From Sphingomonas sp. (lineage in GTDB: Bacteria > Pseudomonadota > Alphaproteobacteria > Sphingomonadales > Sphingomonadaceae), in contig JAFIGU010000056.1 of assembly GCA_017849555.1 (NCBI GenBank), positions 50,951-114,950 on the forward strand: DNA of 64,000 bases, read 5' to 3'. A program made the translations under genes and the position numbers. Shown piece by piece: positions 24,052-31,929 of the stretch. Position 1 is the first letter of the stretch. The number at the start of each line of letters is the position of its first letter. Under the pieces are notes generated by a model. The model was not told where the DNA came from. It saw only the letters and a program-made list of their open reading frames with translations, and searched no databases.

Positions 24052-27000
24052 CTAAGCCGCCTGCACCCGGCCCGAGCGTTCCAATTTGCCCCAGCCGACC
24101 ACCCAGCCGCCGATCGCCGAGCTGATCGCACGGAGCACGACCCAATACATGATCTGGCGATAGACCAGCCGTTGCGCGACCAGCAGGAAGGCGGGGTAAC
24201 GCACCTTCCGTCCGTCGAGGCGATAAGCGATCCAGCCGCAGATCACATCGATCGCGGTGAAGCTCAGCCAGTAGAGCCCCATTTTCCCGACATCGCCGCT
24301 GGTCTGCGCCCAGCCGTGCTGGGCGACGCGCATGATCGTGCCGACGATCGAGACGATCAGCGCCAGGTCGATCAGCGGGGAGATGGCGGCGAAGGCGATC
24401 TGGAACAGCCACGCCTGCGGCAGCCCGACATGCGCGAGCCCGGGGGGCTTGCCGCTGGCGATCACTCCGCGATGCTTCCACAGGCATTGCAGCGTGCCGA
24501 ACGCCCAGCGGTAACGCTGCTTGGCGAGCGCGCGGAAGGTTTCGGGCGCCTCGGTCCACGCCACTGCGCGCGGATCGTAGGAGACGCGCCAGCCCGCGCG
24601 CTGGATCGCGATCGTCAGATCCTGATCCTCGGCCAGCGTATTCTCCGGATAGCCGCCGACCGATTCGAGCGCCGTACGGCGCCACGCCCCGACCGCGCCC
24701 GGCACCACCGTCATCGCGTCGAACCCGGCGAGCGCGCGCCGCTCGAGGTTCTGCGCGGTGATATATTCGATCGCCTGCCAGCGCGTGACGAGGTTGACCC
24801 GGTTGCCGACGCGCGCGTCGCCCGCTACCGCGCCGATCGCGGGATCGGCGAACCAGCGGGTGAGCCGCGCGATCGTCTCGGGTTCGAACTGGGTATCGGC
24901 ATCGAGCGCGATCACCACCTCGCCGCTCGCCTGCGCCAGCGCGCGGTTGAGCGCGGCGGCCTTGCCGCCGTTGACCAACGTCATCAGCGTGACGCGCGGA
25001 TCGTCGGCAAAGGCTTCGGATACGAGCGCGCTGGTGCGGTCCTTCGATCCGTCATCGGCGACGATCACCTCGAGCCCCGGATAGTCGCTGGCGAGCACGC
25101 GGCGGACCGAGGAGACGATCACGCGCTCCTCGTTATACGCCGGGATGATCACCGAGACCGCGGGGTGGAAATCGGGTGGCACCGCGCGGCGTCGGCGCGT
25201 CTGCAGCCAGGCGAGCCCGGCCATCAGCACTGCGCGGGCGATGCCGAGCGCGATCGCGACATAGAACAGCCAGGACAGCGCCACCGAGGCAAGCGCCAGC
25301 GCGATGAAGATGCCGACGTCGGTCCGCACCGCGAGCAGATCGCGCCCGGTCACCTCGGGCATCGCCACCGATTGCGGGATGTTGACCAGCCCCGAGGCGG
25401 TGACGAAGCTGTAGCCGCGCGCGCGCAGCCCGGCGATGATCTGCGGCAACGCCTCGATCGTCTGCTGGCGGTCGCCGCCGCCGTCGTGGAGCAGCACGAC
25501 ATTGGTCGAGCGGTCCGGGGTCTCGTCATCGACCTGCTGGAGCACCTGGCGCACGATTTCGTCGGTGCCGGGGCGCTGCCAGTCGTTGGGATCGACGTGC
25601 AGCCCGACGACGGTATAGCCGTGCTGCTGCGCGATCAGCGCCGGGCCGAGTTCGTCGGTCGTGGTCGGCTCCGCGTCGCCGAAATAGGGCGCGCGGAACA
25701 GCGTCATCGACCGCCCGGTATAGGCCTGCACCAGCCGCTGCGTCGTGTTGAGCTCCAGATTGACGGTCTGGTCGTTGCTCAGCGCGAGATTGGGGTGGGT
25801 ATAGGTATGGTTGCCGATCTCGGACCCGCCGGCGACGATGCGGCGCAGCAGCTGCGGATGCTGGAGCGCATTCTCGCCGATCACGAAGAAGGTGGCGGGA
25901 ACATGTTCGCGCTCGAGGATATCGAGGATCTTGGGCGTCCATTCCGCATCGGGGCCGTCGTCAAAGGTCAGCGCGATCTTCTTCGGCACCGCGCCGGTGC
26001 GCTGGACGACATAGGGCGTCGGCAGCGAGACATAATCCTCGCGCCGGATCATCGCATCCTTGTCGTATTTCACCCGGCGCACACCCTCGGTGGGGGAGGA
26101 GGTGATGCGCAGGATCTCGCCCGATCCCTCGACGTCGACGTTGAGGAACGACTGGATCCGGCTGAGCACCGGCACCTTGTTGGGCAAGGTGGTGCGGAAG
26201 GCGGCAAGCGCGTTCCAGAACCCCGGATCCTCGGTGCCGAGCCGCCACATCGCGATATTGGCGATGCCCAGCTTGCGCAGCACGACGAACTGGTTCCAGC
26301 TCGTCGCCGCATCGAGCATCCAGATCTGATGCTGAGTATTGTCCTCGTCATAGGCGAAGCCGGCGTTGCCGCTGGCGGGATCGAAGGTGATCGGCGCCTG
26401 GCTGTCGCGCGCGGCGAGCCACGCTTCTTCCACCGCCATCGTGTCGGCGGTATTATCATGCCAGTCATAGCCATAGCTGCCGAGCGCGACGATCAGCTTG
26501 TCGTGCCCGACCTGGTGCAGCGCATCCTCGACCACCTGGACGAACCACGGCTGCGAGGCGATCGGCCCGGCCGACCCGCTCTGCCAATGTTCGTCATAGG
26601 CCATCAGGATGACGTTATCGACGACCCGCGCGAAGCTCGCGAGGCGCCATTCGGGCTCGCCCGCGGGGACGGTGACGGCCAGCGTCGCACTCTGCGGCAG
26701 CGCCCTGTTGAGCTGGTCGAGGAACGAGACATAGGCGGGCAACGCCTCGGGCGGCAGGCTTTCGTAATCCATCACCAGCCCGGAGGCGCGGACATTGGCG
26801 ACGGTCGCGACGAGCTTGTCGATCAGCGCCTTGCGTCGCGCGGGGCTGCGCAGCATCGTCGCGACGCCTTTGCCGTCCCATTGCTGGTTGACGATATTCT
26901 GCACCATCGGCAGCAGCTTGGGCGGGTGTTGGGCCGAGGCGAGCACCTGCGCCAGCCGCGGCGCGCGCGCCTGATAGATATTGCCATTGGCGTCGCTGGT

Positions 27001-27372
27001 CAGGATCGCCGGCACCACCCAGTCGAGCGCGTTGATATTGCGCTGGAGCGAGGTGATCCCGCCGTCGAAGCTGGGGGCGTAGAATCCGATCGTCACCGGC
27101 TTGCCGCCGGTGCCTTTGGCCGGCCGGGTGTTGCGCGCGATATGCGGCAGCCAGCGCGAGGAGGCTCGGCCGCTCGGCGTCGCCTTGGGGTTGAACGGCT
27201 GCGCCTGGCGATGCGCGAACGGCAACGGCAGCCCCGGCCCCGATGGGACTGCGACGAGCGTCGTGGCAAAAGCGAATGCCACCAGCATGATCAGCGCGAT
27301 CAGAAGCGCGACCGAGCGTCGCGCCCGTGTGCCCCGCCGGCCGCTGGGATCGTAGAAGATCGGAGTATTCAA
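24052..27372 (-). CDS. Trimodular GH18-like / NodB deacetylase / GT2 synthase membrane protein
   Basis: A 1106-residue protein that appears able to polymerise and trim a polysaccharide. A membrane anchor at about 19-41 is followed by a GH18-like barrel (about 90-410) with GLVMDYESLPP near residue 202, which keeps the catalytic Glu but has a shortened DxxDxDxE motif, and VDNVILMAYDEHW. The NodB deacetylase domain (about 462-665) has IALTFDDGPDAEWTP near 468 and the metal-binding HTYTHP near 522. The GT2 domain (about 735-960) has SVIIPAYNEERV, a DADTQ site and KQRYRW near 952 (QxxRW processive-synthase motif), then C-terminal membrane helices. The parts resemble PgaB and PgaC of poly-N-acetylglucosamine synthesis joined in one chain; product identity is inference. 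Confidence 0.88.
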   Translation of the reverse strand: MNTPIFYDPSGRRGTRARRSVALLIALIMLVAFAFATTLVAVPSGPGLPLPFAHRQAQPFNPKATPSGRASSRWLPHIARNTRPAKGTGGKPVTIGFYAPSFDGGITSLQRNINALDWVVPAILTSDANGNIYQARAPRLAQVLASAQHPPKLLPMVQNIVNQQWDGKGVATMLRSPARRKALIDKLVATVANVRASGLVMDYESLPPEALPAYVSFLDQLNRALPQSATLAVTVPAGEPEWRLASFARVVDNVILMAYDEHWQSGSAGPIASQPWFVQVVEDALHQVGHDKLIVALGSYGYDWHDNTADTMAVEEAWLAARDSQAPITFDPASGNAGFAYDEDNTQHQIWMLDAATSWNQFVVLRKLGIANIAMWRLGTEDPGFWNALAAFRTTLPNKVPVLSRIQSFLNVDVEGSGEILRITSSPTEGVRRVKYDKDAMIRREDYVSLPTPYVVQRTGAVPKKIALTFDDGPDAEWTPKILDILEREHVPATFFVIGENALQHPQLLRRIVAGGSEIGNHTYTHPNLALSNDQTVNLELNTTQRLVQAYTGRSMTLFRAPYFGDAEPTTTDELGPALIAQQHGYTVVGLHVDPNDWQRPGTDEIVRQVLQQVDDETPDRSTNVVLLHDGGGDRQQTIEALPQIIAGLRARGYSFVTASGLVNIPQSVAMPEVTGRDLLAVRTDVGIFIALALASVALSWLFYVAIALGIARAVLMAGLAWLQTRRRRAVPPDFHPAVSVIIPAYNEERVIVSSVRRVLASDYPGLEVIVADDGSKDRTSALVSEAFADDPRVTLMTLVNGGKAAALNRALAQASGEVVIALDADTQFEPETIARLTRWFADPAIGAVAGDARVGNRVNLVTRWQAIEYITAQNLERRALAGFDAMTVVPGAVGAWRRTALESVGGYPENTLAEDQDLTIAIQRAGWRVSYDPRAVAWTEAPETFRALAKQRYRWAFGTLQCLWKHRGVIASGKPPGLAHVGLPQAWLFQIAFAAISPLIDLALIVSIVGTIMRVAQHGWAQTSGDVGKMGLYWLSFTAIDVICGWIAYRLDGRKVRYPAFLLVAQRLVYRQIMYWVVLRAISSAIGGWVVGWGKLERSGRVQAA

Positions 27373-30975: not shown

Positions 30976-31113
30976 TTAATTCTCCGACGGCGCGGAGAAG
31001 ATCGGAAACGGCGGGAAGCAGATATGAGAAGAGGTTGCCGGACGCCGCCGAAACGGCGCCCGACAACCCCTAAACATGGTCAGCGGCCGGAGAGTTCCAG
31101 CCCGGGAGACCAT
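30976..31113 (-). CDS. Possible small ORF of 45 residues (low confidence)
   Basis: Starts MVSRAGTLRPLTMFRGC with ACGGAGG 5 bases upstream of ATG, a good ribosome site, and ends APSEN-TAA. Composition (many Arg, Pro, Ser, two Cys) is not clearly protein-like. A 15-bp hairpin (31033-31068) lies inside it. It follows the 18-residue ORF at 31183 on the same strand and could be a second leader ORF or chance. I recognise no family. Confidence 0.25.
   Translation of the reverse strand: MVSRAGTLRPLTMFRGCRAPFRRRPATSSHICFPPFPIFSAPSEN
31033..31068 (-). ncRNA. Strong hairpin in minus-strand small transcript
   Basis: Arms of 15 bases (GGTTGTCGGGCGCCG and CGGCGTCCGGCAACC on the minus strand) around the loop TTTCGG. 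All 15 positions pair in minus-strand RNA, two of them as G-U; on the plus strand these two become A-C mismatches, which argues for minus-strand transcription. The following bases, CTCTTCTC, are pyrimidine-rich but not a U-run, so terminator function is possible but weak. Confidence 0.5.
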
Positions 31114-31182
31114 GCGAGCCTCCGTACCTATGAACCGCGTCGTTGATTGGAGGAGGATACCTCCCGGCGCGGCCCGGCGGTG

Positions 31183-31239
31183 TTAGAAGCGCGTCCCCCG
31201 AACGAACTGAACCGACCCCATTGCTGAACCATGAGACAT
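31183..31239 (-). CDS. 18-residue small ORF with perfect Shine-Dalgarno sequence
   Basis: Encodes MSHGSAMGSVQFVRGTRF and ends in TAA. Fourteen bases, AAAGGAGGTGATCC (31254-31241), are an exact complement of the 3' tail of 16S rRNA, and the GGAGG core sits 7 bases before the ATG: about the strongest ribosome site possible. I recognise no family. It lies alone in a gap of more than 480 bases between the M20 peptidase and a lipoprotein gene, with an AT-rich stretch and a perfect palindrome upstream and a hairpin downstream. It may be a genuine micro-protein or a leader peptide. Confidence 0.5.
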   Translation of the reverse strand: MSHGSAMGSVQFVRGTRF

Positions 31240-31316
31240 CGGATCACCTCCTTTCGCTGGTTGAAGACGTATTGTGGCTTGACCCACGCTGGTTATTTCG
31301 GGCGTCGGGTCGGAAT

Positions 31317-31331
31317 AAACAAGTCTTGTTT
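31317..31331. promoter_or_regulatory. Palindrome AAACAAG-T-CTTGTTT upstream of small ORF
   Basis: Perfect 7-bp inverted repeat with a 1-base centre in an AT-rich patch (31310-31350) about 80 bases upstream of the 18-residue ORF start. Operator or promoter element is a reasonable guess; nothing else in the 31 kb gap explains the local AT-richness. Confidence 0.3.
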
Positions 31332-31392: not shown

Positions 31393-31929
31393 TCACCCCC
31401 GACAATCTTCGATCACCCGCCCGACTTCGGCATAAGCGGGAATCACCAGCGTCGCCGCGCCCTGCTGCTGGATGACGAATCGCCCACGGCTGAACGCCAT
31501 CGCATCGAGCAACGGATCGTTGATCGCGAGCGCGGCGGCGACATAGGGCTGCGCGCCGCCGGTCGGCTGCACCGCCACCGCGCGACTCACGCTGCTGGTG
31601 CGCACGGTGATCGGCGCGATCCCGGCGCCGGTGCGCGAAAGATACATCCGCCGCTCGCTCCGGTCGCAACGCAGCACGACGACCGCATCGCCGCCGTCGC
31701 CGAACATCGCACGCGTGCCGCGGCTGTCGGCGGCGTAGCGCCAGGTGCCGGGCGTCAGCGGCCAGTCGCGCCAATCGTCGGCGAGCGGCGGCGGTGCGGT
31801 GACGGCAGGCGGTGGCGGCGCGGGCGCCGGGGCACGGACCACCGGCGGCGGGGCGGGCGGGGCGCTGACGCAGGAGGCGAGGGCAAGCGCGGCAAGCGCG
31901 GAACCGGCGGGCAAGATACGACGACGCAT
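31393..31929 (-). CDS. Putative lipoprotein of unknown function
   Basis: A 178-residue protein with a lipoprotein-type signal: MRRR, hydrophobic core SALAALALASC with Cys at about residue 20. Then a Pro/Ala-rich spacer (APPAPPPVVRAPAPAPPPP) that could cross the cell wall, and a globular part starting DWRDWPLTPGTWRYAAD with VVVLRCDRSERRMYLSR and FSRGRFVIQQQGAATLVIP. The globular pattern recurs in sphingomonad hypothetical proteins by my recollection, without a named function. Confidence 0.75.
   Translation of the reverse strand: MRRRILPAGSALAALALASCVSAPPAPPPVVRAPAPAPPPPAVTAPPPLADDWRDWPLTPGTWRYAADSRGTRAMFGDGGDAVVVLRCDRSERRMYLSRTGAGIAPITVRTSSVSRAVAVQPTGGAQPYVAAALAINDPLLDAMAFSRGRFVIQQQGAATLVIPAYAEVGRVIEDCRG

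Follow-up and report, generated by a model that had tools for sequence, protein, structure and literature searches.

The closest described relative of the element treated here is the small RNA CC2171 of Caulobacter, whose name probably goes back to Landt 2008. The family is filed in Rfam (RF01867) as a Caulobacter non-coding sRNA, and the available passages of the literature on CC2171/RF01867 mention no open reading frame (ORF). Titles and abstract openings from a wider literature search likewise include none on such an ORF, and the accessible portions of PMC5082802, PMC12559287 and PMC4741004 hold nothing on an ORF of CC2171 type. A Mesorhizobium huakuii RNA labelled RF01867, MH_s33, is given as 215 nt with apparent sequencing coordinates (PMC5596092, in excerpt). 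A profiling study of Caulobacter counts 133 ncRNAs, 27 of which were known earlier, and states that most of the 133 come from intergenic regions shown by profiling to be untranslated; 75.4% of coding starts were reported to have no Shine–Dalgarno sequence (SD) (PMC4117421, in excerpt). Given that proportion, an SD of the kind described below stands out in Caulobacter. CC2171 itself is presumably among the ncRNAs of the profiling study.

Two other systems invite comparison. rnTrpL/peTrpL, a dual-function attenuator sRNA of Sinorhizobium meliloti, is likewise a small RNA of the Alphaproteobacteria whose short ORF is translated, translation being argued from comparison in the present case; it differs in being leaderless, tied to trp genes and provided with a 14-aa peptide of reported function (PMC10117765, in excerpt). 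According to the same excerpt, 33% of 54 non-annotated translated sORFs of S. meliloti lay on annotated sRNAs, so that the re-labelling of sRNAs as translated has precedent. Extended SD motifs of Staphylococcus aureus share the long pairing between SD and 16S rRNA near a start codon (PMC13009471, in excerpt). They represent a general initiation rule there, whereas here a 12-nt SD followed by ATG was found 35 times in 61 genomes, and all 30 sites inspected belong to a single RNA family.

The Locus and Its Relationship to CC2171

The window is the whole stretch of DNA that was analysed, 64,000 nucleotides of a Sphingomonas sp. On its minus strand an SD is followed after one base by an ATG (31239–31237), which opens an 18-codon ORF (Table 1). 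A sequence-only reading of the stretch had pointed to an 18-residue ORF behind an exact 14-nt complement of the 16S tail, to an SD far beyond the normal and to a gap of about 480 bases without another gene. Direct reading agrees on the ORF and on the exceptional SD, extends the pairing to 15 nt, and places 484 bases between the neighbouring minus-strand coding frames, which end or begin at 31393 and 30909. The frame of the ORF extends open upstream (63 aa from 31374), and the strong conservation of the element begins at the SD and not in this upstream open frame. The 13-mer GGATCACCTCCTT has a single exact occurrence in the window. AAAGGAGGTGATCC occurs once in the 4.87-Mb source assembly, a uniqueness that leaves rRNA out because rRNA genes are missing in the four genomes of the genus that were checked.

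Table 1. Features of the element in the window (strand "." where the feature is a palindrome).
Feature	Position	Strand	Remark
15-nt Shine–Dalgarno GAAAGGAGGTGATCC	31241..31255	-	complement of 16S rRNA 3' tail GGATCACCTCCTTTC
18-codon ORF MSHGSAMGSVQFVRGTRF + TAA	31183..31239	-	by comparison, conserved in start, stop position and length but not in peptide
Match to Rfam RF01867 CC2171, model positions 1–159 of 159	31039..31263	-	Rfam search
Terminator-like hairpin, 19 bp in predicted fold, modest T-rich tail	31022..31071	-	scan requiring 4/8 tail T
5' UTR hairpin GTGG-GTCAAG-CCAC	31274..31287	-	stem letters vary among species, pairing kept (by eye)
Palindrome ACAAGTCTTGT	31319..31329	.	conserved upstream in Sphingomonadaceae; possible operator/promoter element
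P1 5' strand CATGGTTCAGC, ORF codons 3–6	31223..31233	-	long-range helix
P1 3' strand GCTGACCATG, immediately before terminator	31075..31084	-	pairs with CATGGTTCAGC
Local copy CATGGTCTC, competing hairpin in genus Sphingomonas	31106..31114	-	can pair with P1 3' strand

The window sequence scored 28.9 bits against RF01867, for which the gathering cut-off is 75 bits; the E value was 1.5e-4 when 301 bases were searched and 5.7e-4 when its whole own genome was searched. It aligns end to end with the 159-position model, and poorly in the interior (mean accuracy 0.63). Up to E = 10 the stretch had five further Rfam matches, all with E values of at least 2.1, and a tRNA is the only match in the window that reaches gathering level. 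Shared with CC2171 are the 5' motif, GAAAGGAGGTGATCC-N-(A/G)TGTCTCAT, and the order of the parts: SD, ORF start, long-range helix and terminator. The window copy has the motif, the terminator and the potential for the long-range helix P1 between the ORF start and the strand before the terminator; P1 lies outside its minimum-energy fold. One Sphingomonas genome, G010, has both a canonical and a window-type copy, and the model matches both.

Among 190 genomes of the class, 39 were matched by RF01867 at E 0.001, seven of them above the gathering cut-off, compared with one of 14 control genomes, that of Caulobacter vibrioides. Most of the CC2171-matched loci that were inspected start with the same SD and start codon, and of 18 loci scanned in other clades, five reach the gathering score. 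Since the window-type copies fall below the formal cut-off, the element is a relative of CC2171 and not a formal member. The comparison thus identifies it as a divergent subfamily, or relative, of this alphaproteobacterial RNA, a kinship that the sequence-only reading had missed while being right that the element is real and conserved. It would be a new subfamily, and its parts an anatomy not recognised before in a known RNA family, the available literature passages on CC2171 giving no description of that anatomy.

Distribution in the Alphaproteobacteria

The combined SD and start motif AAAGGAGGTGATNNNATG was found in 34 of 37 genomes of the genus, the three others being 81–86% complete, and in none of 24 genomes from other genera of the order, with 35 occurrences in all 61 genomes searched. 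Inspection of 30 of these sites gave 29 elements of the window type and one canonical CC2171 copy (L028). As for the remaining five, the CC2171 model also recognises that of G010, and the other four have the same 18 letters. Two genomes of the genus, G010 and G452, contain a further site, with the variant AAAGGAGGTGATCGAATGTC; in G010 this is the canonical CC2171 copy, which scores 68.9 bits and accompanies the window-type copy.

With other start codons allowed, the looser pattern was present in 52 of 64 Sphingomonadaceae genomes and in none of 83 genomes from other families of the order. Two of the 12 Sphingomonadaceae without it have variants in which every change in the 15-nt site keeps G-U pairing with the 16S rRNA; the other ten have no site at three or fewer mismatches. 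Class-wide, 41 of 289 genomes contained the SD-plus-start motif, which was found in none of 149 genomes from other classes of the phylum. Carriers among the matches listed include Bradyrhizobium, Methylobacterium, Mesorhizobium, Bosea, Brevundimonas, Azospirillum, Ruegeria and Defluviimonas. The exact motif was also seen in two records titled Gemmatimonadetes MAG (L137 and L168), possibly mis-binned or misnamed.

A search of the class with a 37-nt sequence model, R1, matched 155 of 385 genomes at E 0.01, and 104 genomes at E 2.3e-4 or better among the matches listed. Three loci at the latter level (L305, L324 and L317, from G279, G664 and G716) were not member-like on inspection. Among the weaker matches L325 was a member and L329 a non-member, and all four fetched for a check were antisense to real 16S tails.

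Pairing of the Shine–Dalgarno Site with 16S rRNA

The 16S reference was taken from four alphaproteobacterial genomes outside the genus of the window, four checked genomes of which had no rRNA genes. All four 16S genes end in GGCTGGATCACCTCCTTTCTAAGGA, and the site therefore pairs with 15 consecutive bases of the tail, the G preceding AAAGG being included in the pairing in the four class members.

Changes in the SD were followed in 54 loci, chosen as weak matches or carriers of changes after L305, L317, L324 and L329 had been dropped; heavily changed sites escape this set, because the search model behind it had learned from the intact motif. Positions 5–11 (GGAGGTG) are unchanged throughout. 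At positions 2–15, by comparison, changes mostly preserve pairing with the 16S rRNA: 26 family-level changes keep it (A12>G in 11 families, C15>T in nine, A2>G in three, A3>G in two and A4>G in one) and ten break it (C15>G in six, A2>T in two, and T13>C and C15>A in one each). When only transitions are counted, 26 keep the pairing and one breaks it, while seven of the 14 possible transitions would keep it. Position 1 follows no such rule, with seven family-level changes (G>A five, G>T two) that all break pairing, and the constrained pairing is therefore 14 nt or slightly less.

An exact complement of the 16S tail is also what a remnant, or an antisense artefact, of the end of a 16S rRNA gene would look like. 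This origin was rejected and is given next to no probability, since the Rfam scan found no rRNA in the window, the sequence runs on into an ORF and not into 16S antisense, and it is kept in the 29 copies of the genus that were inspected.

An Open Reading Frame of Kept Length and Changing Peptide

Comparison of the loci indicates that the start, the stop position and the length of the ORF are kept while the peptide is not conserved. In 213 unique loci, which were picked by a pattern that itself includes a start codon, all frames close at 14–59 codons, and only L208 and L221 exceed 36 codons. In the family-level set (53 loci from 51 families, f73 and f135 being represented twice) the ORF has 14–36 codons in 49 loci, with quartiles of 23–26, versus 12 and 13 of 53 in frames +1 and +2, an imperfect control because conserved letters are shared between frames (TCTAG ends frame +2 early in many loci). 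The four misfits are two secreted-protein versions, one locus with 39 codons and one at a contig edge. Among the Sphingomonadaceae loci of MSHG type, 79 of 85 stop at codon 19, with TAA in 45, TGA in 25 and TAG in nine, and the codons flanking the shared stop vary; these 79 having been selected by length, it is the shared position that serves as a test and not the letters of the stop.

These results bear on the possibility that the element is a usual non-coding sRNA, in which the 15-nt site would bind the 16S tail as a decoy or titrating sequence, or an RNA target, and the ORF would never be usefully translated. Such a role would agree with the filing of CC2171 as an sRNA gene, with the untranslated state reported for Caulobacter ncRNA regions (PMC4117421, in excerpt), with the conservation of the ORF start at the nucleotide level and with SD changes that keep 16S pairing. 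It is nevertheless judged unlikely, with a sizeable chance left to it, as start, open frame and stop are kept in a narrow range of lengths over 51 families, one stop codon replaces another at a shared position while the flanks vary, and a relative with the same SD encodes a conserved protein of 56–59 aa.

Purifying selection on amino acids was not found in the short ORFs, where pN/pS values ranged from 0.82 to 2.64, some groups being as small as 3–6 unique sequences. Frame 0 gave 1.32 in the Sphingomonadaceae, the family of the window (56 unique sequences), 0.82 in the Rhodobacteraceae type (19), 1.25 in the Mesorhizobium type (six), 1.21 in Bradyrhizobium (six), and 1.20, 2.64 and 1.59 in the short ORFs of Azospirillaceae (six, three and six); the same letters in frames +1 and +2 gave 0.50–1.94. 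The secreted-protein version of Azospirillaceae (56–59 aa), behind the same SD, had values of 0.40, 0.44 and 0.41 (eight, four and five unique sequences), and the test is therefore able to see protein selection. The conservation of this protein also argues that a genuine protein can be made from this start site. Weak selection on the short peptides may persist, as pN/pS is blunted where RNA structure limits synonymous sites too. The peptides are unrelated between clades; MSH and MSS N-termini recur, and conserved letters such as MSHGS or EQP fall in RNA helix strands or a hairpin (EQP by eye).

A functional micropeptide, an 18-aa product acting in the cell, is consequently improbable, given pN/pS values near or above 1, peptides that share nothing from clade to clade and conserved letters that coincide with RNA structure. 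What speaks for it is the strong SD with conserved start and stop, the recurring N-termini, the secreted protein that takes the same place in Azospirillaceae, and the value of the Rhodobacteraceae type, which leaves room for some constraint. The earlier suggestion of a highly expressed micro-protein thus loses ground, no protein-level selection being detectable in the window's family. Lack of conservation of both SD and peptide in relatives had been named as what would count against the sequence-only reading; the SD is kept and the peptide is not.

In the Azospirillum family, the same SD or a variant of one or two letters was seen before proteins of 55–59 aa with a signal-peptide-like N-terminus (L208, L266, L313, L330, L331, L333, L342–L357, L371 and L377; similar in L283, L328 and L301). 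Many of these secreted versions have a Cys...His motif such as CSSSHSAS after the signal-like N-terminus (by eye), and a Pfam scan of three of the proteins gave a best E value of 0.36. Some Azospirillaceae genomes have both the short ORF and the secreted version.

Transcription Signals and Predicted Fold

By its signals, the element appears to be an independently transcribed RNA that ends in a terminator, with a length of about 240 nt in the window and about 150–250 nt in folded relatives. A terminator-like hairpin was found 3' of the element in 210 of 213 unique loci, versus 31 of 213 after shuffling. A stricter scan of the window, requiring 5/8 tail T, did not list the hairpin of the element, its sole listed site lying on the plus strand. 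Upstream, the palindrome CAAGNCTTG is present in 76 of 84 Sphingomonadaceae loci, compared with none of 84 control stretches and one of 126 other loci. Outside Sphingomonadaceae (126 loci), TTG[AC] clusters at −67 to −63 (67 occurrences), which would place the RNA start near −30. No sigma-70 promoter was found in the window by a simple scan, and no EcfG-type promoter (GGAAC...GTT) in 211 upstream stretches.

Codons 3 onward of the ORF are able to pair with the bases before the predicted terminator in most clades tested. The equivalents of P1 are CATTGTC/GACAATG in the canonical family and GTGA.../...CACG in others, and in a 41-sequence alignment the letters of the P1 3' strand are invariant except for one inserted base in one row. 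For 53 representatives (a set without L208, L221 and loci lacking a terminator call or with the terminator too near the start) the mean energy of the long-range duplex was −20.7 kcal/mol with the own partner, against −13.6 kcal/mol across clades and −14.0 kcal/mol after shuffling; for nine of the 53, at least 13 cross-clade partners pair as well as the own P1. RNAalifold recovered P1 from the Sphingomonadaceae alignment, most P1 columns being invariant, together with an inner helix that has two-sided changes; from the canonical alignment it reported the terminator and did not find P1.

In single-sequence folding of 49 loci (50 had been chosen, one of them without a terminator call), at least four P1 pairs are expected in 36, the window copy not among them. 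In the genus Sphingomonas a second CATGGTC is able to pair with the same P1 3' strand, and forcing P1 costs 0–6.1 kcal/mol over 29 copies, the structure being 2.5 kcal/mol above the minimum in the window copy. The SD is not freely open in the predicted folds (median unpaired probability of 0.35 in the 49 loci). The RNA of the window folds better than its shuffles (z = −4.69).

Gene Neighbourhood

In the window the next downstream gene, an M20 peptidase, lies on the same strand as the element. In the comparison of neighbours, where only genes supported by at least two other loci were counted, no supported downstream gene was found for the window's own copy (L011). Downstream neighbours differ between clades, and among the 15 most frequent downstream clusters eight are encoded on the opposite strand; two clades keep a same-strand downstream neighbour (35 and 15 of 213 loci). 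On the upstream side, 79 of 213 loci have one gene cluster in common.

These counts weaken the idea of a leader peptide with an attenuator for the downstream gene, here the M20 peptidase, which had been among the earlier suggestions. The shared strand in the window, the two clades with a stable neighbour, and a resemblance to attenuators in the combination of ORF, competing hairpins and terminator would be expected of such a device. The changing identity and orientation of downstream genes leave it unsupported for the class as a whole, the terminator-like hairpin is nearly universal, and no amino acid dominates the ORF (by eye); it is accordingly regarded as very improbable.

The upstream neighbour in the window (31393–31929) encodes a 178-aa protein with a lipoprotein-like N-terminus (by eye) that belongs to the cluster shared by 79 loci, and it has no Pfam match.

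Proposed Mode of Action

The length of the frame is kept though the peptide is not, which suggests that the visit of the ribosome, rather than the peptide, matters. An RNA selected for ribosome docking and short translation, and not for its peptide, is the best explanation of the comparative data, and we hold it with a confidence evenly poised between acceptance and doubt. In such an RNA, 30S subunits would dock at the SD with unusual affinity, and the ribosome would translate about 18–25 codons, melt the long-range helix P1 and leave. The fold, the stability or the freed 3' strand of the RNA may then report on, or consume, initiating ribosomes, the peptide being a by-product. Against this reading stand the untranslated state reported for most ncRNA regions of Caulobacter, an SD that predicted folds do not show open, and the absence of P1 from the minimum-energy fold of the window copy. 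An action of the RNA as a ribosome sink would be an equally possible output, and the earlier idea of a ribosome-titrating RNA, which is compatible with these data, is the one of the three earlier suggestions that comes nearest to the present reading.

Extended to the whole class, the proposal becomes more tentative and is held to be less likely than not: the element may be a ribosome-gated regulatory RNA, in which the complement of the whole 16S tail would be a very strong 30S acceptor, translation of an ORF of about 25 codons, fixed in length and free in sequence, would set the fold or output, and the cell would read or soak up initiation capacity. If this is true, a translated element has been filed as a non-coding sRNA, and selection keeps its start, stop position, length and 16S pairing and not its product, a combination by which the availability of ribosomes would itself become the signal. 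Relatives occur in Caulobacter, rhizobia, Rhodobacteraceae and sphingomonads. The element is testable in laboratory strains, and the loci widen the basis for an improved Rfam model.

Elsewhere in the window, a frame of 1106 aa on the minus strand (24052–27372) was seen to combine glycosidase-like, deacetylase-like and glycosyltransferase-like parts (by eye).
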